NCBI GenBank assembly: GCA_017794825.1
Contig: CP051237.1
Span: 496,001 to 560,000 of the forward strand
Direction of reading: 5' to 3'
Source of the DNA: Pararhizobium sp.
GTDB taxonomy: Bacteria > Pseudomonadota > Alphaproteobacteria > Rhizobiales > Rhizobiaceae
DNA: 64,000 nt
The notes under the pieces are model-generated. The model made no database searches. It was given only the letters and a program-made list of their open reading frames with translations, and was not told where the DNA came from. Positions 1,176 to 13,249 of the stretch are shown here, piece after piece (the stretch's first letter is position 1; each line of letters starts with the position of its first letter). Both the position numbers and the translations under genes were made by a program.

Positions 1176-1946
1176 TTAGACGACGGCTGACGCCTTGAAA
1201 TGGCGCGCCAAGTCGTCGGCCTGCCGCACCAGCAGTCCGAGATCCACCGCCACCGCCACGAACTGGAAACCCCAGCCGAGATAGCGTTCGGCGTCCGCCG
1301 TATTCGTCGCCAGAATGCCGGACGGCTTGTTCAGCGCCTTTAGCGTCTCGAGGCCGGATCTCAGCGCATCCTGCACTTCGCTGTGCGATGGATTGCCGAT
1401 ATGGCCGTAAGACGCCGCAAGATCAGACGGTCCGAGGAACACGCCGTCGACCCCGTCAACGCCGGCGATTTCCTCGATGCGCCCCATCGCCTCACGGGTT
1501 TCGATCTGGACGATGAGGCCGATTTGCGCGTTTGCGTTCGCCAGATAGTCCTTTTCGCGACCATAGCGGCTTGCCCGCGTGGCGCCGGCGACGCCGCGAA
1601 TACCGGCGGGCGGATAGCGTGTGGCGGCGACCGCGTCACGGGCCTCGTCGGCGTTTTCGACAAAGGGGATGAGCAGGGTCTGCGCGCCCATGTCGAGATG
1701 CCGCTTGATGAGAACCTTGTCGTTCCACGCCGGACGCACCAAGGCCGCGGCGGAGCCGCCGGCTGCGGCCTGCAGCAGAGGCAGAACGCCGGCGGCGTCC
1801 ACCGGCGAATGTTCGGTGTCGAACAGCAGCCAGTCGAAACCGGAGCCGGCGAGCGCTTCCGCCGCGATCGGGCTGCACAGGCTGCACCACAGGCCGATCA
1901 GGCGTTCACCCGAAAGCAAACGGTCCCTGAAATTATTCACCGGCAT
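1176..1946 (-). CDS. hpaI: HpcH/HpaI-family 2-oxo-acid aldolase
   Basis: Class II pyruvate aldolase that cleaves 4-hydroxy-2-oxo acids, the product of hydration after meta-cleavage, into pyruvate plus an aldehyde. The 256 residues match the family length. The TIM-barrel motifs are present: FDWLLFDTEHSP near the N-terminus, RPAWND, the metal-binding VQIETREA (Gln/Glu) and GVFLGPSDLAASYG (Asp). The start is preceded by GAGGATG. It is the last gene of the operon, 15 bp after the hydratase with which it works. The HpaI name rests on family resemblance; the natural substrate could be any 4-hydroxy-2-oxo acid, and related enzymes include 2-keto-3-deoxysugar-acid aldolases. Confidence 0.9.
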   Translation of the reverse strand: MPVNNFRDRLLSGERLIGLWCSLCSPIAAEALAGSGFDWLLFDTEHSPVDAAGVLPLLQAAAGGSAAALVRPAWNDKVLIKRHLDMGAQTLLIPFVENADEARDAVAATRYPPAGIRGVAGATRASRYGREKDYLANANAQIGLIVQIETREAMGRIEEIAGVDGVDGVFLGPSDLAASYGHIGNPSHSEVQDALRSGLETLKALNKPSGILATNTADAERYLGWGFQFVAVAVDLGLLVRQADDLARHFKASAVV

Positions 1947-1961
1947 CGCTGGAAATCATCC

Positions 1962-2744
1962 TCACACGAACTGGACCGCGACCGAGCCAAGCGGGCCGAA
2001 ATCGGCGTGCAGCGTGTCGCCCTTGTTCGCCCAGACCGGACGGGTGAACGAGCCCGAAAGCATCAGGTGTCCAGGCTCGAGCGTCGTACCGAAAGGTCCA
2101 AGCTTGTTGGCGAGCCAGGCGATCGCCATCGCCGGATGTCCGAGCACGCCCGCCGCGATGCCTGTCTCCTCAATTTCCGAATTGCGATAGAAAATCGCGC
2201 CGACCCAGCGCAGGTCGACGTCCTCCGGCCGCACCGGTCGGCCGCCGAGAACAATGCCGGCCGCCGCGCCATTGTCGGCCACCGTGTCGAAGATCTTGCG
2301 CGGCTCGGTCACCCGCGCGTCGATAATCTCGATGGACGGCACGACCCATTCGGTCGCCCGCATGACGTCCACGAGGCCGACGCCTGGTCCTTTCAGCGGC
2401 TCCTTCAGAATGAAGGTGAGCTCCGGCTCGACGCGAGGCACGCAAAACGTCTCGAACGCCACCTTCGCGCCGTCTTGCAGCACGAGATCGTCGAACAGGT
2501 AGCCGTAGTCGGGCTCGTCGATCTTCGAGGACGCCTGCATCGCCTTGGAGGTGAGACCAATCTTGTGACCGACGATCTTGCGTCCCTGACGCACCCGTTC
2601 CTCCGCTACGCCGGAGGATATCGCATAGGAATCCTCGATTTCGATGTCGGGAAACATTTCCGACGGTCGGCGTCCCTGCACCTTGGTGCGATGGCTTTCC
2701 AGGAGGGAGGCGATCGCTTCCGCGCGCTGTTCTTCACTTAGCAT
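1962..2744 (-). CDS. hpaH: 2-oxo-hept-4-ene-1,7-dioate hydratase-like enzyme (FAH superfamily)
   Basis: Hydrates a 2-oxo-alk-4-enoate to the 4-hydroxy-2-oxo acid that the adjacent aldolase splits. The 260 residues, the N-terminal helical part (QRAEAIASLLESHRTKVQGRRPSEMFPDI) and the motifs GHKIGLTSKAMQ, EPELTFILKEPL and NGAAAGIVLGG are those of the HpaH/MhpD hydratases, which bind Mg or Mn. The ATG has GAGG a few bases upstream and follows the dehydrogenase stop by only 7 bp, so the two genes are probably coupled. Assignment to HpaH rather than MhpD or DmpE is inferred from the HpaI-like partner and the chain length. Confidence 0.9.
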   Translation of the reverse strand: MLSEEQRAEAIASLLESHRTKVQGRRPSEMFPDIEIEDSYAISSGVAEERVRQGRKIVGHKIGLTSKAMQASSKIDEPDYGYLFDDLVLQDGAKVAFETFCVPRVEPELTFILKEPLKGPGVGLVDVMRATEWVVPSIEIIDARVTEPRKIFDTVADNGAAAGIVLGGRPVRPEDVDLRWVGAIFYRNSEIEETGIAAGVLGHPAMAIAWLANKLGPFGTTLEPGHLMLSGSFTRPVWANKGDTLHADFGPLGSVAVQFV

Positions 2745-2751
2745 GCTGACC

Positions 2752-4194
2752 TCAGAGCTTTATGCAGACATTTCGAAGTTCGGAATAGAACTCCATGGAG
2801 TGTATACCACCTTCGCGGCCAATTCCGCTGGCTTTTGATCCTCCGAACGGCGTTCTGAGGTCGCGCAGGAACCAGCAATTGACCCACGTGATGCCGACCT
2901 CGACAGCCGCCGCGACACTGTGCCCGCGCGTCAGGTTCTCGGTCCAGATCGTCGTGGCGAGACCATAGGGCGACGCATTGGAGAGCGCGATCGCCTCCTC
3001 TTCCGTGTCGAACGGCGTCAGATGCGTGCACGGACCAAAGATTTCTTCGGTGACGATGGGCGACGACTCGGTGAGGCCGGTCCACACGGTCGGCTCGACC
3101 CAGTAGCCACCCTCGTAGCCTTGCAATTCGGGCGCGCCGCCGCCCGCCAGCACCTCGGCGCCCTCTCTTTTCGCCCGGTCGTAATAGGAGATCACCTTGG
3201 CGCGATGCTCGTCCGAGATCACTGGTCCCATGGTGGTCGCATTGTCGAACGGATCGCCGAAGCGATAGCCCCGCGCTGTTGCGGCCAGACCTTCAGCGAC
3301 CCGGTCGAATATGCCGCGCTGAACGTAGAGGCGCTCCGTGCCAAGGCATACCTGGCCGGTATTGGCGAAACAGGCGCGTCCGATGCCTTCCATGGTCTTG
3401 TCGAAATCCGCGTCGTCGAAAATGATGCCGGGGTTCTTGCCGCCGAGTTCCAGCGACACCGGGCGCACGCCGCTGGACGCCGCCGCCATGATGGCTTCGC
3501 CGGTGCGGGTTTCGCCGGTGAAGGTGATGCCGTTCACATCCGGATGGGACGTCAGGAACGCGCCGGCGCAGTCGGGGCCGCGCCCGTGCACGACATTGTA
3601 GACGCCTGCGGGAATGCCGACCTCGTTCATTACCTCGCCGAGCAGCGTCGCAGTGGCCGGCGTCTCTTCCGACGGCTTGACGACGACCGTGTTGCCGCAG
3701 GCGAGCGCCGGCGCAACCTTCCAGGTCATCAGCAGCAGCGGCAGGTTCCACGGGCAAATGACGGCGATCACACCGCGCGGCTTGCGAACGGCGTAGTTGA
3801 GCGCGCCGGCGCCGTCAGGCGTCGGCTGCGCGAAACTCTCCGCGCCAAGCACCGACACCTGGTCAGCGAACACGTTGAAATTCGCGGCGCCGCGCGGAAT
3901 GTCGATATGGCTTGCGATCGACCGCGGCTTGCCGGTGTCGCGAATTTCGGCTGCGAGAAACGCGTCGAACCGCGCATTGATCCCGTCGGCGAGCTTGCGC
4001 AGCAGCGTCATTCTTTCGGGAACGCTCATCGTCCCCCACGGACCTTTCAGGGCGGCTTTGGCAGCGCCGACGGCGGCGTCGACCTGCTCGCGATCGGCCG
4101 CGCGAATTTCGCCGATAACCTCTCCGGTCGTCGGGAAATGATTGGCGAGGCTCGCGCCGCGGCCGGATACGAAACGGCCGTCGATGAAATTCAT
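2752..4194 (-). CDS. NAD-dependent semialdehyde dehydrogenase (HpaE/2-hydroxymuconic semialdehyde type)
   Basis: Aldehyde dehydrogenase that probably oxidises the semialdehyde formed by ring cleavage. All class motifs are visible: CPWNLPLLLMTWKVAPALA, VNGITFTGETRTGEAI for NAD binding, LELGGKNPGIIF with the general-base Glu, and NTGQVCLGTERLYV with the catalytic Cys. With the ATG used here the protein has 480 residues. A TTG at 4206 would add LTEF, would overlap the upstream stop codon and has a better-placed AAGGAC, so it may be the real start. Its position between a ring-cleavage-type gene and the hydratase indicates the oxidative branch of a meta pathway. Confidence 0.9.
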   Translation of the reverse strand: MNFIDGRFVSGRGASLANHFPTTGEVIGEIRAADREQVDAAVGAAKAALKGPWGTMSVPERMTLLRKLADGINARFDAFLAAEIRDTGKPRSIASHIDIPRGAANFNVFADQVSVLGAESFAQPTPDGAGALNYAVRKPRGVIAVICPWNLPLLLMTWKVAPALACGNTVVVKPSEETPATATLLGEVMNEVGIPAGVYNVVHGRGPDCAGAFLTSHPDVNGITFTGETRTGEAIMAAASSGVRPVSLELGGKNPGIIFDDADFDKTMEGIGRACFANTGQVCLGTERLYVQRGIFDRVAEGLAATARGYRFGDPFDNATTMGPVISDEHRAKVISYYDRAKREGAEVLAGGGAPELQGYEGGYWVEPTVWTGLTESSPIVTEEIFGPCTHLTPFDTEEEAIALSNASPYGLATTIWTENLTRGHSVAAAVEVGITWVNCWFLRDLRTPFGGSKASGIGREGGIHSMEFYSELRNVCIKL

Positions 4195-4202
4195 GAACTC
4201 AG

Positions 4203-4895
4203 TCAAAGCGCACTGTCCTTGTTTTCCCGGGATTTCTCCGGATCGCCTGCGGTCAGATGATCCCACATGCGTTCAATGATCCGGCCGGCCTTTGTGGCCC
4301 GCGCCGCCGCAGCCTCGTCGGAAATCGGTTCGGCGTTCGTCAGACCCGTCGAACGGGCGACGATCTCGACGCGGCACATGTCTTCCAGGTACCAGGCGAG
4401 CACCACGGCTTCCTCGAGGCTTGCGCCTGCCGTGACTGCGCCATTGCCGCGCATCAGCAGTCCGGCGCCGTTCGCCATGGCCTTGATTGCGCCGTCGGCG
4501 CGTTCGTCGTCGCGAATGAGTTGGGGGTCGTTCCAGTATCCGACGCGGGGCGCAAAATAGGCGCCGAATCCGTGGCGCGGCAGCGGCGCCACGCCCAGCG
4601 CGCCGAGCGCCATGACGTTCGGTCCCATGAAACGCACCACGCCGCTGGCCTCAGGCCGTGACGCATAGATGCGCTGATGCAGCCGCACTTCGCCCAGCAC
4701 GCCGTCCGGCAGCGGCCCTTCGACAGGCGCTTCGTAGCAGGGCGCCCCTGCCCCGATCAGACCCATCGGCTCGGGCGGGCATACGAGAAACCGATCCGCG
4801 TCGATGCGCGCCGAGCAATGGCCATAGGCGTGAACGAGCCCGGCGCGCGCCAGCGCGCGCGCCGCCATGCGAACCGTAACGGAAAGATCGCTCAT
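4203..4895 (-). CDS. Class II aldolase/adducin-fold protein without the zinc histidines
   Basis: A 230-residue protein of the fuculose-aldolase/adducin family; its step in this pathway is unknown. The fold is recognisable from HAYGHCSARID, the Glu of GEVRLHQRIYASRPEASGVV, and GNGAVTAGASLEEAVVLAWYLE. The usual zinc ligands are replaced: the family's V-H-x-H segment reads VRFM (Arg88, Met90), and the third His, normally in N-H-G, is Asn151. The gene overlaps the dioxygenase stop by 4 bp (ATGA) and runs into the dehydrogenase, so it belongs to the operon. It could be a decarboxylase, an isomerase or a structural partner. Aldolase chemistry of the classical zinc type is unlikely. Confidence 0.85.
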   Translation of the reverse strand: MSDLSVTVRMAARALARAGLVHAYGHCSARIDADRFLVCPPEPMGLIGAGAPCYEAPVEGPLPDGVLGEVRLHQRIYASRPEASGVVRFMGPNVMALGALGVAPLPRHGFGAYFAPRVGYWNDPQLIRDDERADGAIKAMANGAGLLMRGNGAVTAGASLEEAVVLAWYLEDMCRVEIVARSTGLTNAEPISDEAAAARATKAGRIIERMWDHLTAGDPEKSRENKDSAL

Positions 4896-5761
4896 CCGTC
4901 CTTTCCACTGTCGAATGCGGCGATCCGGGGCGCGGCTCCCCATTTGCAGAAGCCCTTGGCTTCGAAATGGAATTGCCGGTCGCGCCACAGCGGTTCGTCG
5001 TGGATCTCCAGCACACCCGTCGAATATTCGAAGGTCATGCCGTCCGGGCCGGTGAAATACAGAAATTCGGCCGACGAGGTCGGATGCCGGCCGGGGCCGA
5101 ACGTGATCTTGACCTGGTTGTCGCGCACGAAATTGAAGCTGCGCTGAATGTCGTCCGTGCCGCCCACCTGGTGGTTGATGTGCTGGATCCCGGCCTTGTG
5201 GAAAGGAAACAGCGCGATCGAGTGGTGGATCGTGCCGAGCCGCATTAGCGGCGCGTCGCCGATACGGTCGCTGACGCGGGCGTTGCAGACCTTGGTCCAG
5301 AAGGCCTCGTCGCGCGCGGCGTCCGTCGTGCACAGCCCGACATGGGAAAAGCCGGTGATGCCGGCGTCGCGCGTTCCGTGATAATTCACGCCGGTGGTTT
5401 CCGGCCGTACCACGAATTCGATTGCGTTTCCGGTCGGGTCGCGAAACCGGATGAACTCGCGCACATAGCGCGCTTCGCATTCCTGCCGCGTCCCGTAATG
5501 CACCGCGTGACCCAGCGTCTCCAGTGTCGCCGCCGCCGTCTGCAGGTCCTCGCCGCGCCCGAGTTCGAAGGCCGTCACCTGATCTTCCGGATCGCCCTCG
5601 ACATAGCACAGCGTGTGGGCGCGCTCGTCGGACTTGAAATAAGTCGCGCCCTTGCGGCGCTCGGACACTTCAAGGCCAAGTATGTTGGTGGCGAACCACT
5701 CTGCGCCGGCGAGATCCCGCGTGCCGAGGCGGCAATAGACGACGTCTCTGAGCTCGATCAT
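4892..5761 (-). CDS. Type I extradiol ring-cleavage dioxygenase (catalytically complete copy)
   Basis: Opens a catechol-type ring next to its two hydroxyls using Fe(II) or Mn(II) and O2. The 289 residues form two vicinal-oxygen-chelate domains as in BphC. The C-terminal domain carries the full facial triad: His140 in GFSHVGL, His197 in GIQHINHQVGG and Glu245 in GMTFEYS. The C-terminal strand RQFHFEAKGFCKWG is also typical. It overlaps its paralogue upstream and the class II aldolase gene downstream by 4 bp each (ATGA), which indicates tight translational coupling. The downstream hydratase and aldolase fit a meta-cleavage pathway. The substrate is not determined; a demethylated lignin-derived catechol is plausible from the distal O-demethylase gene. 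Confidence 0.9.
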   Translation of the reverse strand: MIELRDVVYCRLGTRDLAGAEWFATNILGLEVSERRKGATYFKSDERAHTLCYVEGDPEDQVTAFELGRGEDLQTAAATLETLGHAVHYGTRQECEARYVREFIRFRDPTGNAIEFVVRPETTGVNYHGTRDAGITGFSHVGLCTTDAARDEAFWTKVCNARVSDRIGDAPLMRLGTIHHSIALFPFHKAGIQHINHQVGGTDDIQRSFNFVRDNQVKITFGPGRHPTSSAEFLYFTGPDGMTFEYSTGVLEIHDEPLWRDRQFHFEAKGFCKWGAAPRIAAFDSGKDG

Positions 5762-6624
5762 AATACGTCTCCTCCAAGAAATTCCGCCTGTTCGGTCACG
5801 GATCCCCAGATGCCGTGGCTGCGAGCGGCGTTGGCGAACTGTCGCGGGCCGCGTTCCGCGATCTGCGGCCCCGTTTCCATGTCGGTGATGTAGCTCATCA
5901 GAAGTCCGCGCGGACCGCCGGTGGTCACATACATGGCTCTCGAAGCGGCCTGGCGGTCGGGGCCTGCGATCACCGGAAGCTGGCTCTTCTGCATGAAATA
6001 CCAGTTGCGCATGATGCTGTCCTTGTCGTCCACCTCCCAGCAGGCGCCCAGAATGCCGTCCCGGTCGGACGGATAGAGCGCCACGCGGTGATGCGCGGCG
6101 TCCAGCGCCAGATAGGCCGTGTCGCCAGCCCAGTCGGAAACCCGCAGACCGAGCCCCTTCGTCCAGAAGGCTTCATTGGCGACCACGTCCGTGCAGGCCA
6201 TTTGCACCGAGTTGAACTCGACGATCCCGGCGTCGCGCGGCGCATGATAGCGCCAGCCCGAATGAAGTGGGCGCCATACGATCTCGACGGCGACGCCGTT
6301 CGGCGCCGTAACCGCCAGAGCGGCCTTCGCCTGACGCGTTGCGGCTTCCGCCTCGGTGAGTTTCGACGGGCTGAAGCCGGCGCCGTCCAGCCGGGCTGCA
6401 ACGGTTTCCAGATCCTCTTCCCGCGCGACGGTCAGGGCGACCGCATCGCCGTCGCCGGCGGTGGAAAAGCAGATAGAGTAGTTGCGTGCGTCGGACCGGA
6501 ACATGGCGTGCGCATCGTCCCGGTCTGCGGCCTGAAGACCGAAGACGTCGGTGGCGAAACGCGCGGCGGCGTCAAGGTCGTCCACAGATACCCGCAGGTA
6601 TCGAAGGTCACGATATCGGATCAC
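5758..6624 (-). CDS. Extradiol-dioxygenase paralogue lacking all three metal ligands
   Basis: A 288-residue two-domain vicinal-oxygen-chelate protein, colinear with the next gene over its whole length (shared AFWTK, RVSDWAGD/RVSDRIGD, matching strand order). At each metal position it differs: the first His is Ser139 (VEFNSVQM), the second is Trp196 (GACWEV) and the Glu is Ser244 (GLLMSYIT). Classical ring cleavage therefore looks impossible. The frame is intact, with a GTG start directly behind AGGAGG, and it is the first gene of the operon, so it is probably expressed. It may be a non-catalytic partner subunit of the active dioxygenase, a binding protein, or an enzyme with other chemistry. 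Confidence 0.85.
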   Translation of the reverse strand: MIRYRDLRYLRVSVDDLDAAARFATDVFGLQAADRDDAHAMFRSDARNYSICFSTAGDGDAVALTVAREEDLETVAARLDGAGFSPSKLTEAEAATRQAKAALAVTAPNGVAVEIVWRPLHSGWRYHAPRDAGIVEFNSVQMACTDVVANEAFWTKGLGLRVSDWAGDTAYLALDAAHHRVALYPSDRDGILGACWEVDDKDSIMRNWYFMQKSQLPVIAGPDRQAASRAMYVTTGGPRGLLMSYITDMETGPQIAERGPRQFANAARSHGIWGSVTEQAEFLGGDVL

Positions 6625-6730
6625 TGGTTCCTCCTGCGCCGGGCCAGCGCCGACGCGATTTTACAGAAAGCGCGGCGCTGGCGTCAAAGGCGGCGCGCCG
6701 TCGCTTCTGCAATTATTGTGCGCCTATTAA

Positions 6731-6746
6731 AATATCGATATTTTTA
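6731..6746. promoter_or_regulatory. Candidate operator of the GntR regulator (site 1)
   Basis: The AT-rich gap between the catabolic operon and the regulator contains the perfect 16-bp palindrome AAAATATCGATATTTT at 6729-6744. The stretch AATATCGATATTTTTA recurs with one mismatch upstream of dctP (13234-13249), and a related TATTGATTTTTT lies at 6763-6774. FCD-type GntR regulators bind short palindromes in their own divergent promoter regions, so this is the expected place and form. Binding itself is inference. Confidence 0.6.
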
Positions 6747-6874
6747 ACTGTCAACGCCTAATTATTGATTTTTTCGCCAAACGCGTTAAAATGGCAATTG
6801 ATCTGTTGTCAACGAAAGCCTGCGACGATATGGCCCGGTATCCGGCAACATCCACGATGGGAAAAATGCTTCAA

Positions 6875-7564
6875 ATGAGTGACAAGACCAACACGGAGAA
6901 AGCCTACCGTCTTCTGCGCGAAGACATCGTTTCCGGACGGCTTGCTCCCGATCTCAAACTCAAGATCGAGATGCTTCGCCAGCGCTATTCGCTGGGCGCG
7001 AGTCCCATTCGTGAAGCGCTTGCGCGGTTGTCGGGCGAACATCTGGTCACGCTTGAAGGCCAGCGCGGCTGCCAGGTCGCGCCAATGTCGATCAATGACG
7101 CGCACGATATCGGCCGCATGCGCAAGATGATCGAGGCGGAAGCGCTTCGGCTGGCCATCCCCGCCGGAAACCAGAGCTGGGAAGACACGGTCATTACCTC
7201 CTTTCACAGGCTGGAGCGCGTCGAGCGCCGCAGTGACCAGGGCGTCGACGACCTCGCCGAATGGGAAATCCTGAACGGTCGCTTTCACCAGGCGCTGGTC
7301 AGCGCCTGCGGCTCGCCCTGGCTGTTGCGCATCCGCAGCCTGCTTTTCGATCAGCATGAACGCTATCGCCGTCTGTCGCGCATGCGCACGGTGCTGACCC
7401 GCGACATCAACGAGGAGCACCGGCGCCTGATGGAAGCCGCCCTCGACCGCGACGCCGAAGAAGCCGTCAAGATCATCGAGGTCCACGTCGAACGCACGAC
7501 GGACGCCGTCGTCGACGCGCTGCAGCAGAATTCAGACATGGCAGTGAGCCTGGTCGCATCCTGA
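6875..7564 (+). CDS. GntR-family (FadR/FCD subgroup) transcriptional regulator
   Basis: Likely ligand-responsive repressor of the divergent aromatic operon and perhaps of the TRAP operon. It has an N-terminal winged helix with the typical SPIREALARLSGEHLV recognition segment, then an all-helical FCD ligand-binding domain that keeps the metal/ligand residues in LNGRFHQALVSACGSPWL and INEEHRRLMEAALDRDAEEA, ending with HVERT. The start chosen (MSDKTNTEKAYRLL) gives about 229 residues, the usual size. The frame is open back to an ATG at 6791, but those extra 28 residues have no family counterpart. It is transcribed away from the operon across a palindrome-bearing gap. Confidence 0.9.
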   Translation: MSDKTNTEKAYRLLREDIVSGRLAPDLKLKIEMLRQRYSLGASPIREALARLSGEHLVTLEGQRGCQVAPMSINDAHDIGRMRKMIEAEALRLAIPAGNQSWEDTVITSFHRLERVERRSDQGVDDLAEWEILNGRFHQALVSACGSPWLLRIRSLLFDQHERYRRLSRMRTVLTRDINEEHRRLMEAALDRDAEEAVKIIEVHVERTTDAVVDALQQNSDMAVSLVAS

Positions 7565-7625: not shown

Positions 7626-8141
7626 TCAGGTTTTCACGGAAGCATATCCTGCGTTGTTGAGATAGTTTGCACATTCATTGGGAGTAATGGTGTGGATAAG
7701 ACTTCCGATGTGCCTCCATGTATCCTCGATGGTGCGCTTTTGGGCCATTCTCATCCAGTGCTTGATCTTTGCGAAGGTCTGCTCGATGGGATTGAGATCT
7801 GGTGAATAGGGTGGGAGAAACCAAAGCCGAGCTCCTGCCGCTTTGATCAATTGACGAATGATTGCGGCCTTGTGAGAGCCAAGGTTGTCCATAATGACGA
7901 TATCGCCGGGTTTCAGCGTCGGCAGCAGGATCTGCTCCACATAGGCGCGGAAACTTTGGCCGTTGATTGGCCCGTCGAAGACGCAAGGAGCGGCAAGACC
8001 ATCACACCGCAGTGCTCCAAGGAAGGTCATCGTACGCCAGTGACCGTGCGGCGCAAAGCTGCGCAGTCGTTTGCCTTTGTCTGCCCAGCCGCGCAAGGGG
8101 GTCATATTCGTCTTGATCCAGGTTTCATCGATAAAGACCAA
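7626..8141 (-). CDS. IS630-family transposase, DDE catalytic part (second frame)
   Basis: Carries the catalytic core of the transposase: VFIDETWIKTNM (first Asp), GDIVIMDNLGSHK (second Asp) and LPPYSPDLNPIEQTFAKIKHWMR (Glu in NPIE). The listed start is only the first Met. The reading frame is open further upstream, through EQARADIARRRQRWRSFQANLDPRQL, to the A-tract at 8231-8238 where it must join the first frame. The functional protein is expected to be a fusion of both frames of about 315 residues made by frameshifting or slippage. Confidence 0.9.
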   Translation of the reverse strand: MVFIDETWIKTNMTPLRGWADKGKRLRSFAPHGHWRTMTFLGALRCDGLAAPCVFDGPINGQSFRAYVEQILLPTLKPGDIVIMDNLGSHKAAIIRQLIKAAGARLWFLPPYSPDLNPIEQTFAKIKHWMRMAQKRTIEDTWRHIGSLIHTITPNECANYLNNAGYASVKT

Positions 8142-8214
8142 CTGACGTGGATCGAGGTTGGCCTGGAAGGAGCGCCATCGCTGTCGTCGTCGTGCGATAT
8201 CGGCGCGCGCCTGC

Positions 8215-8574
8215 TCAAGAGCGAATAGAGTTTTTTTTGAACCGAAATCCTTCCCGGCGCAGGAACCGCCACACTGTATCGTGCGATACTGTCACGCCGC
8301 GGGCCGCCAGTTGCGCCTTCAACCCATGCAGTGTCAGATGTGGCGTCTGGTTGATAGCCTCTACGATAAAGGCCCGGTGCGGCTCCAGAATGTGCTTGCG
8401 ATGGCCGCCCATCTTGCCAGGCGCAACCGAGCCGGTCGCGCGATAGCGTTGCGACCATTTGACGACGGACGAAACAGCAACGCCAAATCGGGTCGCAACT
8501 GCACGGCAGCTTTCGCCCGCCGCAACCGCCGCAACAACCCGCTCACGAAGATCCATAGAAAGAGGTCGTGTCAT
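8215..8574 (-). CDS. IS630-family transposase, helix-turn-helix part (first frame)
   Basis: The N-terminal DNA-binding part (MTRPLSMDLRERVVAAVAAG, then RFGVAVSSVVKWSQRYRATG) recognises the element ends. The frame closes shortly after a run of eight A residues on the coding strand. Removing one A, or a +1 shift, joins it to the catalytic frame and yields the normal family sequence RFKKTLFALEQARADI. Programmed frameshifting or transcriptional slippage at such runs is known in IS630 relatives, so this is not necessarily a defect. The next Met (MDLRERV, at 8556) is an alternative start. Confidence 0.85.
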   Translation of the reverse strand: MTRPLSMDLRERVVAAVAAGESCRAVATRFGVAVSSVVKWSQRYRATGSVAPGKMGGHRKHILEPHRAFIVEAINQTPHLTLHGLKAQLAARGVTVSHDTVWRFLRREGFRFKKNSIRS

Positions 8575-8665
8575 CAGATGCTGGCCTCCTGTCCCAGCCA
8601 GCATCTTGAATCACAAACATCCGAAAAAGGGAATCCCTATTGATTCAGTCAAGGGCAGAATCGCT

Positions 8666-10069
8666 CTAGCTCACCCGCCAGCTTCCGCCATATCCCTCGC
8701 GCGCGAGGCTGGAATAGGGAACCGTCGAGACCCGCACCCGGATTTCAGCCTGCTTGTGGCGCTCGATCGCATTCTTGCCGGATCCGCCGTCGGGTTCGCC
8801 CCAGACCATGGTCAGAACGTCGCCGACCTCCACATCCGCGTCGACAATGCCGAGCGAGAGCATCGAGCGCTCATTGTAGGAGTAGCCGGCGTACATGGAC
8901 ATGCCGACGACCTTGTCGCCCTTCATGACGCTGTCGTAACTCGACGACGCGTAGTTCGAGAGCGGCAGGTCGATCCACTTGTAGTGCTCCTCGCCCGGCT
9001 TGAAGGCGGAGGCGACGACCTTGACGACGTCGTCCGCGTTCCACTCGAAGGTCACCTTCTTGCGCTGCGGCGTGTCCTGCATCTTCTCCAGCGCTTCGCG
9101 GCCTATGAAGTCGTGGTCGAACTTGACGTAGAACCCGTAACCGAGATCCTCGGGCGTTGCGTAGTAGTCGGTTATGTCGTCGGAGACATAACTGCCGCCG
9201 ATCGAGCCTGCCGCCTCGTATCCGTCGGCGGGCAGCCATTTTCGGTACTGCTCCATGATCCCGCCGCCCGTGTAGATCGCCGGCAGCGGCGAGGGAATCC
9301 ACCCCGATTCCAGCGGCGTCGTCGGATAGGCGCGGCTGCCGACAAGGCACAAATTCACGCCGACTTCCTTCGCCGCCCGCATGATGGCGTCGCGGATATG
9401 ATCCTTCTGGTCGTAGGGACCCCAGATCTCCAGCCCCGGAGCGCCCGCCATTCCGTGGCGCAACGCCTGGACGCGGGTGTCTCCGACATTGATCCAGTCC
9501 ACGTGGAAGAACTTGATCTCGGGCAGCGGTCCGCCATTCATCTGTTCGAAGATCAGCGGCGCTTTCGGGCCCTGTATTTCGTAACGGTAATGCGTGCGGA
9601 CAACGGACTTTCCGTCTGGGCGCGAGGGAGAGCGCGGATCGCGGTGGACCCGGCAATTGTATGAGCCGATCGAGTGGTTGAATTCGATCCAGTTGGCGGC
9701 GGGCGCACGCCCAACCAGGATGAACTTGTCCTCGCGTTCGCGGAACATGATCATGTCGCCGATGAATTGGCCGTCCGGATTGACCGCCACGAAATGCTTT
9801 GCGCGGTTGGTGCCGAACTTGGCGAACGAGTTCACCGCCAGGCCTTCCAGCAGCTTCGCCGCGTCCGGTCCCTCCACGATCAGTTCGTCCATGTGGTGGC
9901 ATTGGTCGAAGAGAACCGCCTCCTCGCGCCACGCCTTCTGCTCGTCGCGCCAGTTCGAGAATTCGGGCGCCACCACCGGATAGACGTAGATTCCGCATTT
10001 CGAGTTGCGCAGCATCTCGACGGCGTTTCCATGCTGCTGGATGGCTGCTTCGAGGCAGTTGGTCGTCAT
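8666..10069 (-). CDS. LigM/DesA-like tetrahydrofolate-dependent aromatic O-demethylase (GcvT family)
   Basis: Probably transfers the methyl group of a methoxylated aromatic acid to tetrahydrofolate. The 467-residue length, the N-terminal region with YPVVAPEFSNWRDEQKAW and the internal segments DGQFIGDMIMFRE, HGMAGAPGLEIWGPYDQ and GYGFYVKFDHDFIGREAL fit the LigM/DesA branch of aminomethyltransferase-like proteins better than glycine-cleavage GcvT. DmdA-like demethylation of sulfonium compounds is a less likely alternative. It is the last gene of the TRAP operon, 84 bp after dctM. The TAG stop codon coincides with the TA target of the adjacent IS630 element, but the coding sequence is complete. 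Confidence 0.8.
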   Translation of the reverse strand: MTTNCLEAAIQQHGNAVEMLRNSKCGIYVYPVVAPEFSNWRDEQKAWREEAVLFDQCHHMDELIVEGPDAAKLLEGLAVNSFAKFGTNRAKHFVAVNPDGQFIGDMIMFREREDKFILVGRAPAANWIEFNHSIGSYNCRVHRDPRSPSRPDGKSVVRTHYRYEIQGPKAPLIFEQMNGGPLPEIKFFHVDWINVGDTRVQALRHGMAGAPGLEIWGPYDQKDHIRDAIMRAAKEVGVNLCLVGSRAYPTTPLESGWIPSPLPAIYTGGGIMEQYRKWLPADGYEAAGSIGGSYVSDDITDYYATPEDLGYGFYVKFDHDFIGREALEKMQDTPQRKKVTFEWNADDVVKVVASAFKPGEEHYKWIDLPLSNYASSSYDSVMKGDKVVGMSMYAGYSYNERSMLSLGIVDADVEVGDVLTMVWGEPDGGSGKNAIERHKQAEIRVRVSTVPYSSLAREGYGGSWRVS

Positions 10070-10153: not shown

Positions 10154-11413
10154 TCAGAACCAGACGGTCGTGAGCGCCGGAAAAATCGCCAGCAGAACGG
10201 TCACCGCCACGGCCATGGCAACGTATGCGATCATCGGACGAAAGATCCTCATCGGTGCGATGTTGGATATGCCGGCGGCGATGTAGAGAACGGTGCCGAC
10301 GGGCGGCGTGACCAGGCCGATCACCAGCGTCAGCACGACCACGACGCCGAACTGCACCGCGTCGATTTGAAAGACGTCTTGGGCGATCGGCAGCAGGATC
10401 GGCACGATCAGGATGAGCGCAGCCATGCTTTCCAGCAGCGTTCCGACCACCAGCAGCATCGCCACCACGAGCAGAAGAAACAGCGTGGGATCGGAGGTCA
10501 GCGACGCCATCCACAGCGAGAGCTTCTGGGGAATGCCGCCATAGACGATCACCCAGCCGAATGCGTTCGCCGCGCCGATCAGGAACAGCACGAGCGCCGA
10601 ATTCAGCGCGGTGTTGAGAAACACGACCCCAAGCCTGGAAAAGCGGAACTTCCGATAGTGGAACTTGCCCAGAAGCAGCGCGACGATGGCCGCGACGGCC
10701 GCCGCGTCTGTCGGCGAGCCGAAACCGAAGACGATCGTCAGAAGTATGGATAGCGGCACGAGCAGCGACGGCGCAGCGGCAAGCACGATGCGCCGCGTTT
10801 CGGCGCGGTCCAGACGTTCGCTCGCCGGATAACCCTTGCGCCGCGCGGTCACGGCGACGATCGCCACGAACCCGACGAGAAGCATGACGCCGGGAATGAT
10901 GCCGGCGATGAACATGCCGGAGACGGAGACCTGCGCCAGCACGGCGAAGACGATGAAGGGCATTGACGGCGGGATGATTGGACCGAGCATGCTGCCTGCG
11001 CAGGTAATCGCGGCGGCGTCGTCCGTGTCGTAGCCGTGCGATTTCATCTCCGGCACCATGATGCGGCTCATCATCGCCGACTGCGCGATCGCCGATCCGA
11101 TGATCGCCGCCATGAAACCGTTGGCCACCAGATTGACCTGCGCCAGCCCGCCGCGAATGGGGCCGACCAGCACGCGCGCCATGGCGATGAGCTGCTGGGT
11201 GATGCCGCTTTCATACATCATCTCGCCGGCGAGGATGAAAAGCGGGATCGCCAGCAGGGCGTAGTTGGTCATCCCGTTGTAGATCTGTACGAGATAGGAG
11301 CTCAAGAGTACCGTATCGCCGGAAAACAGGATGTAGACGAGCGTGCTCAGGCCCAGAACGACGGCGACCGGAACGCCGAGCAGCAGCAAAACGATGAACG
11401 CGGCGCCGACCAT
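10154..11413 (-). CDS. dctM: TRAP transporter large permease (DctM)
   Basis: The 419-residue membrane subunit that carries the sodium-driven translocation path of a TRAP transporter. It shows about 12 hydrophobic segments and the family signatures IPLFILAGEMMYESGI, GSAIAQSAMMSRIMVPEM, CAGSMLGPIIPPSMPFIVFA and VIGLVTPPVGTVLYIAAGI. Its start lies one base after the stop of the small permease gene, so translation is probably coupled. It is followed in the same direction by the O-demethylase gene, which suggests that the transported solute is the demethylase substrate. Confidence 0.95.
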   Translation of the reverse strand: MVGAAFIVLLLLGVPVAVVLGLSTLVYILFSGDTVLLSSYLVQIYNGMTNYALLAIPLFILAGEMMYESGITQQLIAMARVLVGPIRGGLAQVNLVANGFMAAIIGSAIAQSAMMSRIMVPEMKSHGYDTDDAAAITCAGSMLGPIIPPSMPFIVFAVLAQVSVSGMFIAGIIPGVMLLVGFVAIVAVTARRKGYPASERLDRAETRRIVLAAAPSLLVPLSILLTIVFGFGSPTDAAAVAAIVALLLGKFHYRKFRFSRLGVVFLNTALNSALVLFLIGAANAFGWVIVYGGIPQKLSLWMASLTSDPTLFLLLVVAMLLVVGTLLESMAALILIVPILLPIAQDVFQIDAVQFGVVVVLTLVIGLVTPPVGTVLYIAAGISNIAPMRIFRPMIAYVAMAVAVTVLLAIFPALTTVWF

Positions 11414-11414
11414 G

Positions 11415-11975
11415 TCAGGAGCCCGTTGCGGCGGCGCGGCCGGACAGGAGGCGCGCCATGGCGTCCAGCGTATGGATCGTCATGGTGACGCCGACGATCG
11501 GGAAGACGAGCCAGAAGAGAAATTTCGGAACGCCGAGCGTCAGCGTCGGCTCCTGATAGGTAAAGTTGCCGGAATCGAGCGCGAACTCCATGGCGTCGAA
11601 GCTGTGTCCGGCCAGTCCCAGCGGATCGAAGAGACGCCAGGACAGCCAGATGACGATCACTGCAAAGAGCAGGTTCGCCGCCGCCACGCACACGGCGAAT
11701 GCAGTCGCGGCCGGCCCTTTGAGGAAGTCGCTGATCAGCGTCACGCCCGGATGCGATCCCTTGTGCATCAGCAGAGAGGCGCCGACGAAACCGATCACGC
11801 CCATGAGGTTTGTCACCAGTTCGTCGACCCAGTAGATCGGCGAACCGAACGCCGCCAGCACCACGTTGAGCGCCACCATGACGCAAAGACATCCGCAGAC
11901 GCCGATCAGAACCCGGCTTTCGACGCGGCCCGTGGCCGTCGAAAGGCGTGAAAGAAGCACCGGGGATGCGGTCAT
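11415..11975 (-). CDS. dctQ: TRAP transporter small permease (DctQ)
   Basis: A 186-residue protein with four membrane segments of the DctQ family, the small membrane partner of DctM. Visible features are the paired helices around VLIGVCGCLCVMVALNVVLA and GVIGFVGASLLMHKGSHPGV, and the C-terminal pair FLFWLVFPIVGVTMTIHTLD. It lies between the binding-protein gene (84 bp upstream) and dctM (1 bp downstream), the canonical TRAP order. The substrate is set by the binding protein, not by this subunit. Confidence 0.9.
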   Translation of the reverse strand: MTASPVLLSRLSTATGRVESRVLIGVCGCLCVMVALNVVLAAFGSPIYWVDELVTNLMGVIGFVGASLLMHKGSHPGVTLISDFLKGPAATAFAVCVAAANLLFAVIVIWLSWRLFDPLGLAGHSFDAMEFALDSGNFTYQEPTLTLGVPKFLFWLVFPIVGVTMTIHTLDAMARLLSGRAAATGS

Positions 11976-12059
11976 GGCTCTGGCCTGTGGACGTGCGGAT
12001 TGGAGAGAGCGTCGGCGAGCGGGCGGAGCGCCTGGCAGACAGGCCTCCGCCCGGATAGG

Positions 12060-13064
12060 TCATTCACTCTTGGGAGAGAGTTCAGCCGCCTGTGCCCGGA
12101 GTTCGGGAAGCATGGGCAGCCGGTCGGCCCATTCCGCGTCCCAGGCGGCGGCCAGTTCCGACATGTCTTCCGGCGACAGTTCGACGATGTTCAGCTTGCC
12201 GGCGTCGCGAAAGCCCGCGAGACCGTTGACTTCGCCTTCCACCGTCCGGTCGATCACCTTCTCCAGGAAGGGACCGGCGGCCTCGGTGATCGCCGCCTTT
12301 TCTTCGTCCGACATTTGCCGCCAGGCGCGTTCGGACACCAGCAGAACCGACGGGAACATCGACTGGTTTGTGATCAGAAGCGTCGAGCCGATGGCGTCCA
12401 GCTTAAGAATCCGCATCAGGTCGAGATTGATTTCCACGCCGTCGACCTGGCTGTTGGCGAAGGCGTCGTAAACCGCCGGAAGCGGAAGCGGAATGGCGTT
12501 GGAGCCGTTGATGCGGTGCAAATCGCGGATAGCCGGAGACGGCGTGATGCGCACCTTGGATCCGGCCAGGTCTTCGAGGCTCGCCGCATCAACATTTGTG
12601 ATGACCTGCGTGTTGCCCGCCATGCCGTATCCAAGACCCCGAACCCCGATCTGCGACAGGTTGTCCATGAGATCAGCCGCCACGGAGCTGTTGCGCAACA
12701 CGGCGGCCGTGTTTTCATTGGAATCGACGAGACCGGGCGCCAGCAGCGCGTTGAATTGCGGCACGCGGCTTGCGACTTCCGATACGGTGATCAGCGCAAA
12801 GGTCAAGGCGCCCGATTGAAGCTGCCGGATCATCTCGCCCTCATTGCCGAGCTGTCCGGAATGGAACACGGAAACGGTGTGCTTGCCGTCCAGCTTTTCG
12901 GAAACGTCGGCGCCGAATGCCTCGGCTTCCTGCGTCCATATCTGCTTGGCCGGCGTGATCACGCCGAAGCGCCATTCATCCGCCGCGCTCGCGGTCACGC
13001 CCGCGGCGAGAATGGCGGCGACGCCGATCGTGGTGCGCAGTTCGCCAAGAAGTCGTGTCAACAT
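12060..13064 (-). CDS. dctP: TRAP transporter solute-binding protein (DctP)
   Basis: Periplasmic receptor that captures the solute for DctQM. It has an N-terminal signal peptide (cleavage after TASA), the family core FGADVSEKLDGKHTVSVFHSGQLGNEGEMI, the ligand-arginine region GSKVRITPSPAIRDLHRINGS and the long C-terminal helix with VSERAWRQMSDEEKAAI. The Arg of KVRI is the residue that usually binds the carboxylate, so the ligand should be an organic acid. GGGAGGAATTGG precedes the ATG. The 223-bp upstream region holds a copy of the GntR-type operator motif, which links it to the aromatic operon. Confidence 0.93.
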   Translation of the reverse strand: MLTRLLGELRTTIGVAAILAAGVTASAADEWRFGVITPAKQIWTQEAEAFGADVSEKLDGKHTVSVFHSGQLGNEGEMIRQLQSGALTFALITVSEVASRVPQFNALLAPGLVDSNENTAAVLRNSSVAADLMDNLSQIGVRGLGYGMAGNTQVITNVDAASLEDLAGSKVRITPSPAIRDLHRINGSNAIPLPLPAVYDAFANSQVDGVEINLDLMRILKLDAIGSTLLITNQSMFPSVLLVSERAWRQMSDEEKAAITEAAGPFLEKVIDRTVEGEVNGLAGFRDAGKLNIVELSPEDMSELAAAWDAEWADRLPMLPELRAQAAELSPKSE

Positions 13065-13233
13065 TCCAATTCCTCCCAGAAATTACGAGAGAGCCGGTCG
13101 TTTCGATATCCGGCTGTCCACGTTTTCCCGGCGTTTCAGTGGGTAAACCGTCACGGTTCCGCCCTGCGTCAGCCGGCAATTATCCTCAACGTCTAAATCC
13201 GTAAAGTAACGATAAAATCGTGTCAACTGCAAT

Positions 13234-13249
13234 AATATCGATTTTTTAT
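13234..13249. promoter_or_regulatory. Candidate operator before dctP (site 2)
   Basis: AATATCGATTTTTTAT matches 15 of 16 positions of the site between the aromatic operon and its GntR gene, allowing one A/T change in the centre and one at the end. TAAAATCG (13213-13220) and TTATCGATA (13264-13272) flank it. It lies about 170-185 bp before the dctP start in an AT-rich gap, which is far but acceptable for a promoter with a long leader. A shared regulator is inferred. Confidence 0.5.

Follow-up and report, generated by a model that had tools for sequence, protein, structure and literature searches.

Type I extradiol dioxygenases are, to our knowledge, homo-oligomers encoded by a single gene, and in BphC, HsaC and homoprotocatechuate 2,3-dioxygenase, all of them homo-oligomers, every chain carries a 2-His-1-Glu site. 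The described systems closest to the locus analyzed here are the type I extradiol enzymes DhbA (Pseudomonas reinekei MT1), OpaC (Pseudomonas sp. PTH10) and PsbC2 (Rhodopseudomonas palustris no. 7), which are encoded, as is probable in our case, in clusters with a decarboxylase, and which the available part of PMC6362003 describes as 2,3-dihydroxybenzoate or 2,3-dihydroxy-p-cumate 3,4-dioxygenases. The meta-cleavage routes for these two substrates are represented by DhbA/DhbB, OpaC and CmtC/CmtD (PMC6362003, PMC5224996, both as excerpted). OpaC is a protein of 285 aa, the opa cluster includes a 2-hydroxymuconic semialdehyde dehydrogenase, and an active extract was obtained from E. coli in which OpaC is expressed from its own gene (PMC6362003, same part). 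No inactive partner is mentioned for DhbA or OpaC in that part of the source, whereas the enzyme of the present locus has one. The name PsbC2, as it appears there (PMC6362003), hints at a psbC1 described in 2000, so that a pair was perhaps cloned then, and priority for noticing such a pair may rest with the 2000 psb description. Among titles and abstracts of the open literature, a scope outside which most subscription journals fall, we recognized no published type I extradiol pair that is heteromeric or has an inactive partner.

The locus lies in a stretch of 64,000 nucleotides (hereafter, the window) from a genome of 6.06 Mb represented by a single contig. On the minus strand, an open frame at 5758..6624 encodes, from a GTG start, a 288-aa type I extradiol paralogue that lacks the metal site and matches PF00903 and BphC_D1. 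It is followed on the same strand, at 4892..5761, by a gene of 289 aa with an ATG start, the product of which presents the ligand triad and profile matches of a type I extradiol dioxygenase with a predicted active site. The two genes, here termed the inactive and the active copy, are 35% identical in a global alignment and overlap by 4 bp in a stop/start ATGA (5758..5761), through which the inactive copy, translated first, is coupled to the active one. A ribosome-binding site AGGAGG (6630..6635, minus strand) stands 5 nt before the GTG of the inactive copy, and that of the active copy, GGAGGA (5770..5775, minus strand), lies 8 nt before its ATG, within the 3'-terminal part of the inactive gene. 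An earlier sequence-only reading of this DNA had described the first frame as intact, its AGGAGG as strong and its overlap with the active copy as 4 bp, and it was accurate on all of these points.

The active copy overlaps by another 4 bp with a gene for a class II aldolase family protein (4203..4895, minus strand; 230 aa from its ATG; PF00596), the product of which shows weak similarity, below the cut-off, to the PhtC decarboxylase model. Also on the minus strand are genes for a 2-hydroxymuconic semialdehyde dehydrogenase (2752..4266; TIGR03216, 798.8 bits, above the cut-off), the true start of which may lie slightly inside the frame, an HpaH-like hydratase (1962..2744; TIGR02312, 350 bits, just under the cut-off of 351.5) and an HpaI-like aldolase (1176..1946; TIGR02311, 321 bits, below the cut-off of 368.8), and the operon thus reads inactive copy, active copy, class II aldolase, dehydrogenase, hydratase and aldolase. 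A nearby PF00596 gene of the decarboxylase type and a TIGR03216 dehydrogenase gene are what would be expected of a DhbA/PsbC2 setting, in which the class II aldolase family protein is the probable decarboxylase of the ring-cleavage product, in the role of DhbB or CmtD. The active copy resembles DhbA, OpaC and PsbC2 in length, triad and gene context, a likeness of features rather than of compared sequences. By this analogy, the operon probably fits a meta-cleavage route for 2,3-dihydroxybenzoate or 2,3-dihydroxy-p-cumate, and the substrate of the active copy would most likely be a 3-carboxycatechol, likeliest 2,3-dihydroxybenzoate or a 4-alkyl derivative of it. Protocatechuate 2,3-cleavage (pra) was also considered as the pathway and dropped, because OpaD, which is 28% identical to the PraH decarboxylase, is a metallo-dependent hydrolase, whereas the class II aldolase type of decarboxylase is represented by DhbB, from the 2,3-dihydroxybenzoate route (PMC6362003, in the part available).

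A GntR/FCD regulator (6791..7564, plus strand; PF00392, PF07729) is encoded divergently from the operon, and the divergent promoter region contains a 16-bp perfect palindrome, AAAATATCGATATTTT (6729..6744), as a candidate operator. A copy of it with two mismatches lies at 13232-13247, upstream of the genes for the TRAP transporter components DctM, DctQ and DctP (10154..13064, minus strand; PF06808, PF03480, PF04290), which makes two matches against 0.04 expected. Together, the palindrome and its copy suggest a single GntR regulon joining both operons, with the palindrome as the putative operator of the regulator. The TRAP genes form a block with a gene for a LigM-family O-demethylase (8666..10069, minus strand; NF047885, 657 bits, above the cut-off of 580), and between this block and the GntR gene lies a transposase in two overlapping frames (7626-8604, minus strand; DDE_3 and HTH domains), which we take to be IS630-like. 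It is possible that the demethylase supplies the catechol substrate; together with the TRAP transporter it would do so, for instance, from o-vanillate.

The metal-ligand columns were set by aligning the active copy with BphC (1han) and HsaC; the residue roles and numbering of BphC are those that we assume for this enzyme, the numbering running one above the 1han chain. In the active copy of the window the 2-His-1-carboxylate iron site is complete (H140, H194 and E245), and the second-sphere His/Tyr residues H180, H226 and Y235 are present and aligned with BphC. In the inactive copy, the ligand columns hold S139, G193 and S244, so that the 2-His-1-carboxylate site is absent, and the second sphere is also affected, with Q225 and T234 in the place of BphC H241 and Y250. 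The pair H178-H179 (BphC H194-H195), beside the former metal site, is retained. The sequence-only reading had reported the replacement of all three ligands, and rightly identified Ser139 and Ser244 as the substitutes of the first and the third; the second His, however, maps to Gly193 and not to Trp196, which faces H197 of the active copy, three residues off the ligand column. With its ligands missing, the inactive copy is expected to have lost ring cleavage.

A complete triad is likewise found in none of the 73 distinct rows of the clade to which the inactive copy belongs, and a single row keeps one ligand; the same loss across such a clade rules out chance or sequencing error. The former ligand columns are now occupied by mostly small and variable residues: 32 Ala, 20 Ser, 19 Gly, one His and one Asp in the first; 30 Gly, 18 Ala, nine Tyr, eight Glu, six Ser and two Asn in the second; and 46 Ser, 14 Gly, nine Thr, one Val, one Cys, one Asn and one gap in the third. 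Eight His, Asp, Glu or Cys residues are kept in at least 80% of the inactive rows (D45, D131, D164, D175, H178, H179, C271 and E281), six of which the paired active copies likewise retain, while D175 and E281 occur there only in a minority. No new conserved ligand set or triad stands out by sequence conservation in the 73 rows, and a relocated metal site, which would have undermined the sequence-only reading, thus appears unlikely. The one inactive copy that keeps a ligand is that of L051 (7983-8840; the same protein occurs in L132), which retains the first His in an HET motif, is separated from its active partner by 1.7 kb and may possibly represent an early or separate state.

Other positions are nearly invariant in the inactive clade. 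The His-His pair beside the site is found in all 73 rows and Arg180 in 71. Position 171 is Tyr or Phe in 73/73 rows, the same column being Leu in 96/96 active family rows; it aligns with BphC Phe187, which presumably belongs to the substrate pocket. Leu192 marks the clade less strictly (65/73). The conservation of the His-His pair, of Arg180 and of Tyr/Phe171 at a presumed pocket position, in a gene that is under purifying selection, is what might be expected if the inactive copy were a metal-independent enzyme or binding protein working beside the dioxygenase, for example by holding or isomerizing the ring-cleavage product before decarboxylation, with no lasting contact between the two. Against this stand the small and variable residues of the former ligand columns and the lack of conserved new potential ligands, to which the distances between genes, given below, add a further objection.

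Structure prediction with AF2 drew on alignments of 69 of the 73 inactive rows (68 fetched sequences and the window copy) or of 66 of the 74 partnered active rows, each with some rows of other groups. The single-chain model of the inactive protein (pLDDT 96.6, pTM 0.93) presents the two-domain fold of paired beta-alpha-beta-beta-beta modules and superimposes on 6l3w as a complete two-domain type I extradiol fold (VIA-align Z 33.2, rmsd 2.1, 275 residues); entries of BphC, HsaC and homoprotocatechuate 2,3-dioxygenase give Z values of 31-33 over 266-283 residues. The active copy is modelled with a pLDDT of 93.4 and a Z of 34.4 to 6l3w. Along their full length, the two models align with type I (VOC) extradiol enzymes, and not with the LigB-superfamily fold. 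Foldseek, run with the inactive model only, returns the type I extradiol fold with a best E of 2.2e-23, and both this search and the profile library matches (PF00903, BphC_D1) place the inactive protein, as had been proposed from the sequence, among the extradiol dioxygenases.

The source genome and 60 relatives were searched for further inactive-active pairs, which were found in three of them (G018, G053 and G001). A pattern-based contig scan with four inactive proteins as queries was then extended over one genome per species (84,980 species), a scan that depends on two short conserved peptides and is therefore not exhaustive. It recovered 69 loci, 62 of which contain an inactive copy as judged from the residues in the ligand columns, the split copy of L048 among them. 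The active copy follows directly in 60 of these 62, the exceptions being L051, with 1.7 kb between the copies, and L087, where they are about 4 kb apart and on opposite strands. Seven loci show no inactive copy (L054, L066, L067, L071, L083, L084 and the fragment L089); for L066 and L071, less than 300 bp of upstream sequence is left on the contig, and a partner could be out of view. Judged by record titles, the carriers in the scan belong mainly to the Alphaproteobacteria, with further cases in Stenotrophomonas, Luteimonas and Pseudoxanthomonas.

A survey of 1,832 genomes, which comprised relatives, class, phylum, order and two families, with some genomes searched repeatedly, E limits from 1e-3 to 1e-50 and only the best few candidates scored per genome, gave a congruent picture. 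All 42 genomes with an inactive copy also contain an active one, which is adjacent (at most 234 bp) in 41 and about 1.8 kb away in G974. Fourteen genomes hold only active family copies, 11 of them a single one and three a tandem (G268, G358 and G436). In seven further genomes the active VOC proteins are all more distant (E 5.9e-26 to 4.5e-31), and in six relatives of the source genome nothing beyond weak matches was obtained (E 2.7e-7 to 7.6e-4). For each of the 73 distinct inactive rows the locus also contains an active copy, and an inactive copy without an active one was found in 0/73 distinct rows and 0/42 genomes across the contig scan and the genome survey. The pairing in one operon noted in the sequence-only reading is hence real, ancient and near-obligate (73/73 distinct rows, 42/42 genomes), and the solitary inactive homologues that would have spoken against it (0/73 and 0/42) are lacking in both searches. 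On the other hand, the same reading had called the arrangement unusual for BphC-type enzymes, and here it needs qualification, since the arrangement recurs well beyond the source genome and the family is, by gene context, DhbA/PsbC2-like and not that of BphC itself.

The setting of the pair varies. In the Bradyrhizobium locus L068, and in L055, the pair lies near genes for a Rieske dioxygenase, a ferredoxin reductase and a short-chain (diol) dehydrogenase, with an amidohydrolase gene also present in L068, and we read both as p-cumate-type operons; no class II aldolase was detected in either. The pair is thus found in differing settings, with or without the class II aldolase, and the constant neighbour of the inactive copy is the active one. 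Within the genus of the source genome, the pair of G001 (L006) is far more divergent, with inactive copies that are 37-38% identical, compared with 75-80% for Oricola, Roseibium and Nitratireductor soli, and the greater distance of the congener suggests that the operon was transferred horizontally. On plasmids, too, matches to the two copies occur side by side (H4/H42 on NZ_CP086891.1 and H1/H41 on NC_017966.1), and 44 plasmid records match the inactive copy by similarity, 38 of them from Pseudosulfitobacter and 39 predicted to be conjugative; a scan of viral contigs revealed no relative.

The phylogeny was reconstructed from 185 distinct rows, with identical copies merged and four fragments left out (L020, the two pieces of L048 and L089). 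All 73 distinct rows that lack a complete triad group in a single clade (SH-aLRT 93), and the partnered active copies constitute one subclade (74 rows, SH-aLRT 99), outside which all 22 unpartnered active family rows fall. An inactive copy lies -20 to 150 bp upstream in 69 of the 74 partnered rows; the exceptions are L081 (234 bp), L051 (1.7 kb), L087 (far, on the other strand), L027 (an apparent 206-bp overlap due to an over-long frame) and L071 (contig edge). Clade structure and upstream distances together indicate that the pairing is limited to one subclade, in which, where flanks are readable, no loss of the partner was seen. In the 185-row tree the inactive clade branches next to the active family rows as a whole, while a topology that unites the inactive and the paired active copies withstands the AU test (p-AU 0.26, on 70 of the 185 rows), and long branches may mislead on where the duplication is placed. 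Tandem pairs with a complete triad in both copies were observed in L096, L097 and L100 (three genomes of one family), and constitute a separate duplication within the same family.

These data bear directly on whether the inactive copy might be a duplicate in decay, or a neutral one, that still awaits loss. Its gene has a median dN/dS of 0.12 (range 0.06-0.57) in 27 pairs of related loci, pairs that overlap and in which some dS values approach saturation, and its frame is open in all 73 counted rows; pseudogene features are therefore not apparent, apart from L048. In this locus, from Metarhizobium album, two separate frames (7854-8844) make up the inactive copy, while the active one beside it is intact; either draft error or decay may be the cause. 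Besides that split, decay could explain why the inactive gene evolves faster than its neighbour, with the higher dN/dS in 26 of 26 comparable pairs. Yet the inactive copies form one clade with conserved residues of its own, no loss is seen in the partnered subclade where flanks are readable, and the median dN/dS is low, so that a decaying duplicate is already contradicted and seems to us extremely improbable.

The evolution of the two copies was further compared through pairwise distances in the 47 loci with all four genes (inactive copy, active copy, class II aldolase and aldehyde dehydrogenase). Inactive and active distances correlate strongly (r 0.936), and the correlation persists given the aldolase and the dehydrogenase (partial r 0.667; partial Mantel p 0.001), while the partial r is 0.334 between the inactive copy and the aldolase and 0.175 between the active copy and the aldolase, a low value given that, in most of these loci, the active copy has the aldolase gene as its immediate downstream neighbour. 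As far as distances among sequences can tell, the test thus indicates a specific relationship between the inactive and the active gene, and part of the correlation may also stem from their shared history as paralogues in one operon. The inactive copy shares a greater excess of evolution with the active copy (0.667) than with the aldolase (0.334), and a metal-independent enzyme acting on the ring-cleavage product appears rather unlikely. A complementary degeneration of the two copies, by which the active one would lose what the inactive one keeps, was considered as well. At six positions (D176, R181, S187, M206, Y210 and E282) the inactive copy retains the residue of the unpartnered enzymes and the paired active one has another; in the count, however, based on the 145 columns conserved in unpartnered active rows and sorted by their state in the inactive copy, the paired active copies had lost 6/72 kept, 4/25 half-kept and 3/48 lost columns. 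There is thus no enrichment, and this pattern was not used as evidence.

Over the same 47 loci, distances among the inactive copies exceed those among the active ones by a factor of about 2.5. Such a rate, and the fact that the inactive copy is translated first and overlaps the active one by 4 bp, would also suit a regulatory or chaperone-like partner that binds the substrate or the nascent active protein transiently and stays outside the mature enzyme, with a role in iron loading, folding or substrate sensing that translational coupling would aid. Tight coupling is nonetheless not universal, as gaps of 10-49 bp between the two genes are common and in two loci the copies lie apart, and the inactive protein is predicted to have the full two-domain enzyme fold, with no domain reduced. 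A partner of this kind is quite improbable in our judgment.

The conserved and intact frame, the loss of the metal site, the grouping in one clade, the exclusive and mostly adjacent pairing, purifying selection and correlated evolution are the observed basis for an interpretation of the locus. Given the near-obligate, ancient pairing and the distance test, the best reading is that of a dedicated partner subunit: on these sequence-based grounds, the inactive gene probably encodes a non-catalytic subunit, or pseudo-dioxygenase, that belongs to a heteromeric enzyme of the type I extradiol class, an enzyme that is best read as being of the 2,3-dihydroxybenzoate or p-cumate type. From this we infer a physical association of the two products, their stoichiometry, the contribution of the partner and the substrate. 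The active copy encoded downstream would hold the iron and cleave a 3-carboxycatechol, and the inactive copy would replace one kind of protomer of an ancestral homo-oligomer and would stabilize or shape the active subunit, in a structural and possibly allosteric role.

The family needs no partner in principle, since unpartnered active relatives exist and the extract with OpaC alone is active (PMC6362003, in the part available). With the related OpaC active from one gene, a dependence on the partner, if real, would have evolved within the partnered subclade. It is about an even question whether this whole subclade is obligately heteromeric, as the outcome of one ancient duplication in which one copy lost its iron, the cleaving copy then became dependent on it, for assembly or for the substrate pocket, and the pair spread as a unit from one bacterium to another. 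If members of the subclade do need the metal-less partner, their expression from a single gene may give weak or wrong activities, and it is misleading to annotate the inactive gene simply as a VOC family protein. The natural series that leads from solitary active copies through double active copies (L096, L097 and L100) to active copies with an inactive partner would provide a direct test of the passage from a homo-oligomer to a complex of enzyme and pseudoenzyme.

In the type I extradiol dioxygenases, then, the pair of enzyme and pseudoenzyme is recurrent and conserved. The inactive window protein shares the two-domain fold of BphC, HsaC and homoprotocatechuate 2,3-dioxygenase and, unlike them, has no metal site. 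A second subunit beside the catalytic one, as proposed here, is found in 2-aminophenol 1,6-dioxygenase and similar enzymes of the LigB type (type II), the fold of which is unrelated to the VOC fold. The alpha subunit of 2-aminophenol 1,6-dioxygenase is an inactive, non-catalytic homologue; the beta subunits contain the active site in enzymes of this type, according to the part of PMC4250580 available. As in 2-aminophenol 1,6-dioxygenase, homologous inactive and active copies are encoded together in the window and in its relatives. A physical complex is familiar from the LigB-type enzymes, whereas for the window pair it is put forward as a proposal. An obligate heteromer in the partnered subclade, if true, would parallel, within the VOC fold, the LigB enzymes that carry non-catalytic subunits.
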